Positions 24,750 through 27,463 of a DNA stretch of 49,779 nt are shown piece after piece. Position 1 is the stretch's first letter, and each line of letters starts with the position of its first letter. Origin of the DNA: Mesobacillus persicus. Lineage in GTDB: Bacteria; Bacillota; Bacilli; Bacillales; Cytobacillaceae. Location: contig NZ_FOBW01000024.1 in assembly GCF_900109925.1 (NCBI RefSeq), positions 1 to 49,779 on the forward strand, given 5' to 3'. The position numbers and the translations under genes are program-made. Below the pieces are notes generated by a model. The model made no database searches. It was not told where the DNA came from and saw only the letters and a program-made list of their open reading frames with translations.

Positions 24750-25211
24750 ATGTTAAATAACAGTCATTCTTTATTTCATGCTGTACACCAGCTTTCTAGA
24801 CAATTAACAAAGCAATTGAATGAGGCTCTAGAACCATTTGGCTTATATAATGCGCAGTGGGCAGTTCTGTATGTGCTGAAAGCAAATGGGGCCTTAACTC
24901 AAAAGGAGCTTTGTGAATACCTAGCTGTCGAGGCTCCACCAATGACACGAACGATTCAACGGCTTATGAAACAAGGTTATATCGATCAGCGCACGGGTCT
25001 CGACAAACGGAAAAAGTTTATCCATCTAACAAGCAAAGCAGAGTCTGAATTTCCAAAATGGGAAAAAGCTGTTTTGGAGGCGAATCAGGTTCTAATCACT
25101 TCACTACCAAAGGGCTCTCAAGATGCAATTTATTCAATATTGTCTGAGTGGCTCATAGGAATCAAACAACAGGTAAAAACAGTAGAGGAAGAAGCGATCT
25201 TTAATGATTGA
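24750..25211 (+). CDS. MarR-family transcriptional regulator
   Basis: 153 residues with a winged-helix core: LYNAQWAVLYVLKANGALTQKELCEYLAVEAPPMTRTIQRLMKQGYI (about 33-80) holds the helix-turn-helix, and DQRTGLDKRKKFIHLTSK is the wing. Both terminal helices for dimerisation are present. AAAGGCGG lies before ATG. Its stop overlaps the MFS gene by 8 bases, so the two are translationally coupled. The pair is the usual arrangement of a ligand-released repressor with its efflux pump. No redox Cys of the OhrR type is evident in the N-terminal helix. Confidence 0.92.
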   Translation: MLNNSHSLFHAVHQLSRQLTKQLNEALEPFGLYNAQWAVLYVLKANGALTQKELCEYLAVEAPPMTRTIQRLMKQGYIDQRTGLDKRKKFIHLTSKAESEFPKWEKAVLEANQVLITSLPKGSQDAIYSILSEWLIGIKQQVKTVEEEAIFND

Positions 25212-26418
25212 GAATCAACCTAGGTTATGGACTAAAAATTTTATAAGTGTTTCTGTTAGTAATTTCTTTCTGTTTATGACGTTTTACTTTTTATTAGTGA
25301 CCATGCCTGTGTATGTACTTAATGAGCTTAAAGGAAAAGAATCGGAAGCTGGTCTGGCTACGACTGTCTTTTTATTATCTGCGATTATTATTCGGCCAAT
25401 CGCTGGTCGATGGATTGAGAAATTCGGGGCACGGAGCATCCTTCTTAGCGCACTGGTTTTATTTTCATTAGTAACCTTATTGTACTTATACGCTGATTCG
25501 ATTCTAGTATTAATGGTGATTCGTTTTATCCACGGTATTGGATTTGGAATGGCTACTACAGCAACTGGTTCAATTGTTGCAGCGATTATCCCTGATTCAC
25601 GCAGGGGAGAAGGGATGGGCTATTTTGTTCTTTCTTCAAATCTTGCGATGGTAGTCGGGCCATTTTTAGGATTGACCATCATGCAACAATTGGGAGTCTC
25701 TACGATGTTGTTCATAGGGGTCATTTCTGCAACGATTGGTTTAGTAGCGGGCTTATTTATTACTCTTCCGAAAAGAGATATGGCTACTGTTAAAAATAAT
25801 CGTATCAAGGGGTCCTTCCGTTTCAAGGAGCTTTTTGAAATAAGTGCCATCCCAATTGCCGTTACGGGTGCCTTCTTTGCAATCGTTTATTCCTCCATAC
25901 TTTCATTCGTGTCAGTATATGCGGTTGAAATAGGTGCGGGCAATGTTGCTAGTTATTTCTTTGTCGTCTACGCTGTGGTTTTGTTAATTTCAAGACCATT
26001 CACAGGGAAGTGGTTTGACTTATATGGTGCGAATTCAATTGCTTATCCAGCAATCATTCTATTCGCGATTGGTATGGTTATATTGGGAATAGCTGACTCT
26101 CCTACGTTATTCTTGGTTGCTGCAGCGTTTGCAGGTCTTGGTTGGGGTACACTTTTTCCTAGCTTCCAAACCATTGCGATTACAGTAGCTCATCCGAAGA
26201 GGCGGCCTGTGGCGACGGCAACTTTCTTGTCTATCTACGATATTGGAATCGGTCTAGGCTCTTTTCTTGTTGGTCTTGCGGCAGCAAACCTTAGTATAGG
26301 CACTTTATATTTATTTAGCTCTGTGTATATTCTTATTGGATTGGTGATCTATCATTTATTACAGGGCCGTTATTTAAAAAAAGATAAAAATCATAAAGAA
26401 CAATATCTTGACATTTAA
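25204..26418 (+). CDS. MFS transporter (drug/metabolite efflux type)
   Basis: 404 residues with about 12 hydrophobic helices. The loop 2-3 motif is FLLSAIIIRPIAGRWIEKFGAR, and the half-repeat after the central loop is RPFTGKWFDLYGANSI. GFGMATTATGSIVAAIIP resembles motif C-like segments of drug/H+ antiporters. It starts within the marR 3' end (ATG 25204), so expression is tied to the regulator. Likely function: proton-coupled export of a toxic compound sensed by MarR; the substrate is unknown. The 3' end contains the -35 element of the strong promoter described next. Confidence 0.9.
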   Translation: MIENQPRLWTKNFISVSVSNFFLFMTFYFLLVTMPVYVLNELKGKESEAGLATTVFLLSAIIIRPIAGRWIEKFGARSILLSALVLFSLVTLLYLYADSILVLMVIRFIHGIGFGMATTATGSIVAAIIPDSRRGEGMGYFVLSSNLAMVVGPFLGLTIMQQLGVSTMLFIGVISATIGLVAGLFITLPKRDMATVKNNRIKGSFRFKELFEISAIPIAVTGAFFAIVYSSILSFVSVYAVEIGAGNVASYFFVVYAVVLLISRPFTGKWFDLYGANSIAYPAIILFAIGMVILGIADSPTLFLVAAAFAGLGWGTLFPSFQTIAITVAHPKRRPVATATFLSIYDIGIGLGSFLVGLAAANLSIGTLYLFSSVYILIGLVIYHLLQGRYLKKDKNHKEQYLDI

Positions 26419-26436
26419 ACTTATCTTTACTATAAT
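26408..26436 (+). promoter_or_regulatory. Consensus sigma-A promoter
   Basis: TTGACA (26408-26413), exactly 17 nt, TATAAT (26431-26436). Both hexamers are perfect. The -35 lies inside the end of the MFS gene. Transcription would start near 26443, and the only thing before the next terminator is an approximately 260-nt stretch with no sizeable gene. Confidence 0.85.
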
Positions 26437-26470
26437 GAAATTTCAGCTTCACGAAAGGGACATTCAAGAT

Positions 26471-26557
26471 ATGTCAATAAACTTATGGCGTTCTGCTTTT
26501 AAATATATTTTGAAAACTTATTCACACTGGATCGGCTTCGGAGCCGTAAGGATGTAA
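26471..26557 (+). CDS. Possible small membrane-active peptide, 28 codons
   Basis: ATG 26471 follows AAAGGGA by 10 nt, slightly long but usable. The peptide begins MSINLWRSAF, continues with KYILKTYSHW and ends IGFGAVRM, then TAA. It is basic and aromatic-rich and could form an amphipathic helix. It stands alone behind the consensus promoter and has a long 3' UTR. I do not recognise a family. It could be a chance ORF in a non-coding RNA; conservation of its codons in relatives would decide. Confidence 0.35.
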   Translation: MSINLWRSAFKYILKTYSHWIGFGAVRM

Positions 26558-26672
26558 GAGAGGTAGGGCTTACGTCGTTTAGGTTAAAAATCATCAAGTG
26601 GAATAAAATGTACCGCGGCAGTTTATAAACGAAACATATACATCTTGTGAAGTTGCAAGTTACTATACGAAG

Positions 26673-26705
26673 AAAGCGAACTAGCTACCTGGTTCGCTTT
26701 TTTAA
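26673..26705 (+). terminator. Rho-independent terminator of the 26443 transcript
   Basis: AAAGCGAAC (26673-26681) pairs with GTTCGCTTT (26692-26700), followed by TTT and more T-rich sequence. Confidence 0.88.
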
Positions 26706-26721
26706 TTGAGTTTTTTTCTTC

Positions 26722-26912
26722 TGTGGATAATATAATTATCCACATCCGAAAGTAGTTAATAAATAAGTGTTCCACAGGTTTATCCACATTATCCACAAAG
26801 TAGACAATATTTTATCCACAGAATATATCCACAACACCTTGAGTTACTATATAAGGACTCGGTCTGACTTATGCACAATATCCATAAAAATGTGGATAAC
26901 CGTTGTGGATAA
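26722..26912. promoter_or_regulatory. DnaA-box cluster
   Basis: Seven perfect TTATCCACA boxes: plus strand at 26736-26744, 26780-26788, 26789-26797 and 26812-26820; minus strand at 26722-26730, 26891-26899 and 26904-26912. TTATGCACA (26869-26877) and ATATCCACA (26825-26833) are near-consensus. Two boxes abut head-to-tail and two form a close inverted pair. AT-rich sequence follows to about 27050. No dnaA, dnaN, rep or par gene is near. It resembles the oriC-like or DnaA-titrating clusters of Bacillus. Confidence 0.85.
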
Positions 26913-27059
26913 TGGTTTCTAAAAAACTTTTTATGAACACTTTGTGAAAAACATTGCCATTATAGTGGTTTTAACGTATATTTAGGTTAAGAAAGTTAGT
27001 GAAGTATTTCACAAATTTTCTTCTCTCCTTAAAAAAATAAACAAACCCTACCCCTTACC

Positions 27060-27090
27060 AAAAGCAGGATCAAATGATGATCCTGCTTTT
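27060..27090. terminator. Hairpin, probable terminator
   Basis: AAAAGCAGGATCA (27060-27072) pairs with TGATCCTGCTTTT (27078-27090). It ends the gene-free region after the DnaA boxes, with short T-runs on both strands. Nothing further is recognised in 27091-27231. Confidence 0.7.
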
Positions 27091-27231: not shown

Positions 27232-27423
27232 CTAATGCTTTTGTTTTTTTCCTTTTGCACGTGCGTCTGCGGCTTTAGAGCGAGCCATCGCTTCTAGGTC
27301 TTCATGATCAGCTAATTCGCGGTTAAACTCAACATCAAGTCCATCTGATTTCATGTTTTTTGGTACCTGTGGTAGCTTAGCTGTATTCTTATCTCTACTT
27401 CTTTGCCCACGTGAACGTCCCAT
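27232..27423 (-). CDS. yfhD: YfhD family small protein
   Basis: 63 residues from ATG 27423, which is 8 nt after AAGGGG; a second ATG at 27429 is too close. It starts MGRSRGQRSRDKN, has the conserved LPQVPKNMKSDGLDVEF centre and ends in the AAD(A)RAKGKKQ basic tail. The protein is hydrophilic, charged and cytoplasmic, with no known function. In B. subtilis yfhD and yfhE are adjacent, as here. The conserved position upstream of yfhF/recX supports the assignment. Confidence 0.85.
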   Translation of the reverse strand: MGRSRGQRSRDKNTAKLPQVPKNMKSDGLDVEFNRELADHEDLEAMARSKAADARAKGKKQKH

Positions 27424-27463
27424 TATCATAACCCCTTTCGATTTAAAAGCATTTGTAAAAACA

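Follow-up and report, generated by a model that had tools for sequence, protein, structure and literature searches.

The question raised by this locus is why a dense group of DnaA boxes lies in an intergenic region beside yfhD, apart from dnaA, in a stretch of 49,779 nucleotides of Mesobacillus persicus DNA (the window). The restraint of DnaA in spore-formers has been studied mostly in Bacillus subtilis, and according to the available text of a 2026 review the existence of regulators of DnaA ATP/ADP interconversion in B. subtilis is not known (PMC13220808).

Boxes, neighbours and chromosomal place

Nine DnaA boxes are present between positions 26722 and 26912, namely seven exact copies of TTATCCACA together with ATATCCACA and TTATGCACA (Table 1). 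All nine boxes that the original prediction had placed in these 191 bp were recovered at their positions, including an abutting direct pair (26780/26789) and a close inverted pair (26722/26736). The further claim that this number lies far above chance was borne out: exact TTATCCACA occurs nine times in the whole window, seven of them within the 191 bp, as against 0.50 expected by chance and a maximum of two in 100 shuffles. Genome-wide the word is found 93 times (4.64 Mb, 40 contigs), with seven in the cluster, and the next densest 300-bp stretches, on contigs C11, C33 and C36, hold three exact boxes each; the density is thus not a property of the genome as a whole. When boxes with up to one mismatch are counted, the yfhD cluster has nine in 300 bp and so does the ywlC cluster of the same genome. 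Therefore, the yfhD site is exceptional in its perfect boxes, of which it has more than the oriC of the same genome, and not in its total number of boxes. The surrounding region (26700-26999) is intergenic with a G+C content of 30%, and the DnaA-box cluster beside yfhD is confirmed as real.

Table 1. Boxes of the cluster and features on either side of it, in positions of the window.
Feature	Position	Strand	Remark
MFS transporter gene	25204-26418	+	Pfam MFS_1; on the other side of the cluster from yfhD
BsrC-like small RNA gene	26408-26703	+	Upstream neighbour, outside the cluster; promoter 26408-26436, terminator 26670-26703
Outer boxes, TTATCCACA	26722-26730, 26736-26744	-, +	5 bp apart; variable part
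Left core	26768-26797	+	Weak TGTTCCACA 26768-26776, abutting TTATCCACA 26780-26788 and 26789-26797; offsets 12 and 9
Middle pair	26812-26833	+	TTATCCACA 26812-26820, ATATCCACA 26825-26833
Right core, + boxes	26869-26886	+	TTATGCACA 26869-26877, weak ATATCCATA 26878-26886
Right core, inverted boxes	26891-26899, 26904-26912	-, -	The first after a 4-bp gap
Exact TTATCCACA, first positions	26722, 26736, 26780, 26789, 26812, 26891, 26904	-, +, +, +, +, -, -	
ATATCCACA, first position	26825	+	
TTATGCACA, first position	26869	+	
Promoter TTGCCA-17-TATATT	26954-26982	+	Downstream neighbour; promoter scan
Operator TAGTGAAGTATTTCACAA	26997-27014	+	Downstream of the promoter; Rex-like by the operator consensus
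Rest of putative short C-rich transcript	27015-27090	+	Ends at hairpin 27060-27090
yfhD	27232-27429	-	Convergent to the cluster; Pfam YfhD 1e-29

The original prediction had also held that this is not the standard oriC arrangement, which agrees with the location of dnaA on a separate contig (C33) and with the resemblance of the cluster to B. subtilis clusters outside oriC. Its statement that no replication gene is near holds for the neighbours that were searched. The family search covered seven genes, the other open reading frames of the window being listed only, and gave the order homoserine dehydrogenase, MarR, MFS, the intergenic region, YfhD, YfhE, an epimerase-like protein, and RecX. The window belongs to the Mesobacillus chromosome and is not a replicon. 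A regular expression for trinucleotide runs (DnaA-trios) gave no match at the cluster and none at the genome's own oriC either.

In 19 cluster-bearing genomes, the distance between dnaA and yfhF, which served as a proxy for the cluster, is 11.3-27.8% of the genome, on the same arm. Distances were taken where both genes lie on one long contig, with some genome lengths rounded; dnaA was placed in 32 genomes, of which 27 were used, leaving out G000 and G021, which are in pieces, and also G063, G087, and G318 (three boxes). One genome, G109, was measured but not counted among the 19. Six of the seven genomes that lack the cluster fall in the same range, and the seventh (G067) lies at 45%. Therefore, the place is a property of the gene neighbourhood, and it does not by itself support a role in replication.

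Conservation and order of the cluster

The cluster is present between the MFS gene and yfhD in all seven Mesobacillus genomes examined, with three to seven exact boxes, and with six to nine boxes in the densest 300 bp when up to one mismatch is allowed. The comparison of the yfhD region in relatives that the original prediction had proposed thus found the cluster in place in every genome of the genus that was compared. Of the sequence results that it had named as refuting, namely loss from close relatives or a similar box density genome-wide, neither was obtained. In the outer pair, the + box at the second position is common to most relatives, but the - box is not. Mean pairwise identity in the seven-genome alignment is 83% for box columns and 44% for other columns, the box columns having been defined on the same alignment that was scored, which favours them somewhat.

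In the loci of other genera that were looked at, the MFS gene does not adjoin yfhD, and it was rejected as an anchor; yfhF was therefore chosen, with matches in 137 of 151 genomes of the family and 222 of 249 of the order. The 87 loci anchored on yfhF comprise seven from the genus, 40 from the family, and 40 others from the order. The 80 loci from outside the genus are a hand-picked and non-random set with one or a few per group, taken from 130 matches in the family and 213 in the order outside it (40 of each). A cluster, defined as at least four boxes with up to one mismatch in 300 bp, was found in 48 of the 87 loci. By group it is present in 33 of 58, that is, in 16 of 23 genera of the family and 17 of 35 other families. 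As controls for the same loci, the reversed word gave at most two matches, and none of 1740 first-order Markov sequences reached four. Since 39 of the 87 loci are without a cluster, including both from family f7, the cluster is dispensable. It was not found in 25 groups (e.g. g3, g6, g7, g18, g23, f3, f6, and f7), and four groups are split (g19, g24, f11, f20). Two groups, g11 and f39, have three boxes each and fall below the threshold; two loci, L130 and L151, are short, and L130 may end ahead of the site.

Outside the set of 87, at least four boxes were found in 21 of 23 further loci with 1.5-kb flanks (L080-L102), mostly from genomes or genera already counted, and in the other two (G117, G167) the cluster becomes visible once a longer stretch is taken. 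Among 11 named genomes, also apart from the 87, at least four boxes are present in six (Bacillus sp. P14.5, B. salacetis, Priestia abyssalis, Neobacillus terrae, Bacillus sp. FJAT-14578, and Bacillus sp. SG-1), and fewer than four in Domibacillus tundrae, Gottfriedia endophytica, Anoxybacillus vitaminiphilus, Neobacillus massiliamazoniensis, and Rossellomorea vietnamensis (three boxes). Judged by its distribution and arrangement, the cluster is old and ordered.

The arrangement was surveyed by box offsets in 39 loci (the seven of the genus and one per other group), two mismatches being allowed if one is at position 5. On the same strand, an offset of 9 occurs in 35 of the 39 loci and one of 12 in 20, followed by 54 (16 loci) and 22 (15 loci). 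Convergent boxes are offset by 22 in 19 loci and by 13 in 17, while every other convergent offset is seen in at most three. In the common order, tandem boxes succeed each other at 9 bp, and an inverted box comes next across a gap of 4 bp. Summed over the densest 300-bp stretch of each of the 48 cluster loci, 253 boxes point one way and 47 the other, with + boxes exceeding - boxes in 46 of the 48. Judging by how dnaA and yfhF are oriented in complete genomes, we infer that the majority direction is that of fork travel on its arm. What these comparisons show directly is the presence of the boxes in excess of chance, and how they are conserved, ordered, oriented, and placed.

A strict pattern for the convergent triplet matched in 57 of 397 order genomes, as compared with two for the backward control, and had no match in the genome of the window. 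A relaxed form matched once in the window, at 26874 in the yfhD cluster, and in none of seven other cluster loci from the same genome. Thirty strict-triplet loci were taken from the 57 genomes: twenty lie beside yfhD, yfhE, yfhF, recX, or doxX, eight at gcp/ydiF, and two at neither. The right-core triplet as a mark of yfhD only was rejected because of the eight loci at gcp/ydiF. Four genomes of family f7 (L219-L222) have a convergent triplet elsewhere, beside none of the query genes.

Possible roles of the cluster

The explanation that we favour, with moderate confidence, is that this is an undescribed, old accessory DnaA-box cluster which would sequester DnaA and delay initiation. Like clusters of the B. 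subtilis type, it has several close intergenic boxes outside oriC, in a number above chance and conserved in relatives. Sequestration is suggested by this kind of cluster and by its persistence while neighbouring genes change, so that the titration of DnaA put forward in the original prediction is supported as far as sequence can support it. The binding of DnaA, its sequestration, and an effect on initiation are what we infer from these features, and the cluster probably helps to hold replication back.

The cluster may be regarded as a candidate non-coding site outside oriC with a high affinity for DnaA. On this reading, DnaA molecules would fill the boxes of common direction cooperatively as far as the inverted box at the right end, and each new copy of the cluster may take up further DnaA and so help to delay the next initiation. 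Since the site is 11-28% of the chromosome away from oriC on a single arm in the genomes measured, its duplication would come some time after initiation. Natural pairs with and without the cluster are available for such a titration model, with none of four loci of genus g18 having it and group g24 divided two and two.

The B. subtilis clusters are described chiefly in Okumura et al. 2012, as cited in reviews. The eight B. subtilis regions that bind DnaA most strongly in vitro are the dnaA promoter, dnaA-dnaN, ywcI/vpr, gcp/ydiF, trmE, ywlC, yqeG/sda, and yydA, and the same eight are those readily seen in vivo (PMC4447404, available part). The Mesobacillus genome has box clusters at seven of the eight regions so listed: dnaA, dnaA-dnaN, trmE, gcp/tsaD, ywlC, rlmH (yydA), and yqeG, with proteins named by NCBIfam. 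Small clusters of three or four boxes, at up to one mismatch, are found at yqeG, dnaA-dnaN, and trmE, and no counterpart of ywcI/vpr was noticed in this survey of box clusters. Being intergenic with several boxes close together, the yfhD cluster is similar to those of B. subtilis away from oriC (gcp/ydiF, yqeG/sda, ywlC, yydA, ywcI/vpr, and trmE), five of whose six loci are also clustered in the Mesobacillus genome. It differs in having more perfect boxes per 300 bp than anywhere else in its own genome, in the strong predominance of one box direction, with an inverted box closing the row, and in its place, which is outside the B. subtilis top 20. The site is absent from the top-20 table of PMC4447404 (269 regions in all), and yfhD is not named in the main text of that paper; B. 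subtilis has a YfhD gene (family control). In the literature search, no earlier mention of a cluster at yfhD was found in titles or abstract openings. The cluster is kept in 33 of 58 groups sampled yet lies outside the B. subtilis top 20, which suggests that the set of accessory DnaA sites turns over.

Deletion of six B. subtilis clusters leads to early initiation (PMC13220808, PMC5295017), and a 2024 paper describes these clusters as inhibitory by sequestering DnaA (PMC11019786); according to one review, their role in initiation is not significant (PMC5295017). Each of these statements is taken from the available part of its source.

It is possible, albeit unlikely, that the main role of DnaA at this site is to control transcription from the downstream Rex-type promoter, thereby linking a redox-controlled transcript to replication. 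The target would be the short C-rich RNA in Mesobacillus and doxX in other genera, by analogy with sda. In the available parts of two papers, DnaA activates or seems to repress genes at several strong B. subtilis sites (PMC4447404, PMC8203912). Rex-like sites were found in 13 of 33 groups with the cluster and 2 of 25 without it (Fisher p = 0.008), an enrichment that fits either gene regulation or a shared loss of the whole region; among yfhD-bearing groups only, the figures are 13 of 26 and 2 of 10 (p = 0.14). The distance from the last box to the Rex-like operator downstream of it is 69-117 bp in 17 of 23 loci (49-265 bp over all of them), and this distance is also seen in groups without doxX (g1, g4, g13, g16).

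However, 20 of the 33 cluster groups have no Rex-like site at up to one mismatch, one locus of the genus itself (L039) has none at up to two, and the cluster leads into yfhD (g19, g20) or yfhE (g2) with no Rex-type operator between. Regulation of doxX as the entire explanation was rejected, since the association of cluster and doxX is not significant by group: ten groups have both, 23 the cluster without doxX, three doxX without the cluster (g18, f25, f28), and 22 neither (Fisher p = 0.12). By the group counts, none of its neighbours always accompanies the cluster. As at the sda promoter, the boxes of some groups are upstream of a short transcription unit, but the unit downstream of the yfhD site varies or is absent between groups. 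The cluster may regulate the adjacent small transcript, as the original prediction had proposed: where present, the Rex-type promoter is conserved just downstream, but the operator is absent in 13 of the 26 yfhD-bearing cluster groups.

It seems very doubtful that the cluster is a DARS- or datA-like site, in which an inverted box set against tandem boxes would bring DnaA into head-on contact and change its nucleotide state. In the E. coli DARS cores, one box faces two same-strand boxes with equal spacing at DARS1 and DARS2 (PMC5742627 and PMC8682772, available parts). In two places of E. coli K-12 that were taken for these cores by position, orientation, and equal spacing, the boxes lie at + 0, - 14, and - 26, and the right core at yfhD has + 0, + 9, and - 22, a mirror of that arrangement. 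The two have in common an inverted box facing two tandem boxes, an intergenic location, and a position between oriC and terminus. The convergent offset of 22 is present in 19 of the 39 loci, and the relaxed triplet is found in the window at the yfhD cluster alone and in none of the seven other cluster loci taken from this genome. The one-facing-two feature is found in about half of the 39 loci.

The spacing, however, differs, with offsets of 13/22 at yfhD as compared with 14/26 at DARS1/DARS2, a gap of 4 instead of 5 bp, and tandem boxes 9 instead of 12 bp apart, and the yfhD cluster has more perfect boxes. Since the orientation is matched and the spacing is not, the cluster has not been filed as a DARS. 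In the window, the + box at 26878 of the right core is weak (two mismatches) and there are two - boxes, and the strict triplet is unmatched in the genome; its presence at gcp (8 of 30 loci, in other genomes) means that it is not unique to yfhD. B. subtilis is without DiaA and IHF, according to the available text of PMC13220808. The E. coli datA locus is likewise a box cluster away from oriC and lowers initiation, as is supposed for the yfhD cluster; datA acts by IHF-dependent ATP hydrolysis (PMC5742627, available part). That the cluster is a switch of the DnaA nucleotide state in endospore-formers, with head-on contact altering exchange or hydrolysis, is correspondingly improbable. If it were, DARS or datA would have a Gram-positive equivalent, seated mainly in the yfhD and gcp clusters. 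The fixed inverted-box geometry offers a concrete structure for the question of nucleotide exchange.

The original prediction had offered a replicon relic as another option; that the cluster is what remains of the origin of a plasmid, a phage, or an integrated replicon is highly improbable. The box density is iteron-like, but plasmid and phage searches in distant mode gave no match, the searched neighbours include no replication gene, and the cluster keeps the same chromosomal place in 33 of 58 groups. Chance or neutral build-up of an AT-rich word, for which the intergenic location and low G+C content could speak, may be practically dismissed, since the shuffle, reversed-word, and Markov controls are all far below the observed number and box columns change more slowly than spacers.

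Neighbouring transcripts and lesser clusters

Downstream of the cluster, the stretch 26930-27090 contains GTGAA repeats, the promoter, the Rex-like operator, CCCTACCCCTTA, and a hairpin, and may encode a short C-rich RNA, which would span about 26988-27090. The same putative layout with a Rex-type promoter was seen in four genera without doxX. It is reminiscent of RoxS, the promoter of which carries a conserved Rex site (PMC5419742, available part). Identity of the short transcript with RoxS/RsaE was rejected, as the sole match above the RsaE cut-off sits elsewhere (C17:174921). In several genera, a DoxX-family gene lies behind Rex-like operators beside the cluster (L110 1468-1980, - strand; L107 and L127).

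On the upstream side, three of the seven Mesobacillus genomes (L004, L006, L007) have the BsrC-like gene inverted along with its promoter and terminator, with the orientation of the cluster unchanged. A match to the Rfam BsrC model (RF01410) at 26502-26588 lies on the strand opposite to the promoter and terminator of this gene. In B. subtilis, bsrC sits at ydaG-ydaH (PMC2784878, available part).

Two lesser clusters of the same Mesobacillus genome, L035 4468-4544 and L037 4163-4403, lie beside an unnamed 1140-residue protein and a ThiF/MoeB-like gene. In genus g13, an open reading frame with a small acid-soluble spore protein domain (L115 2776-3372, - strand) runs into the cluster region.
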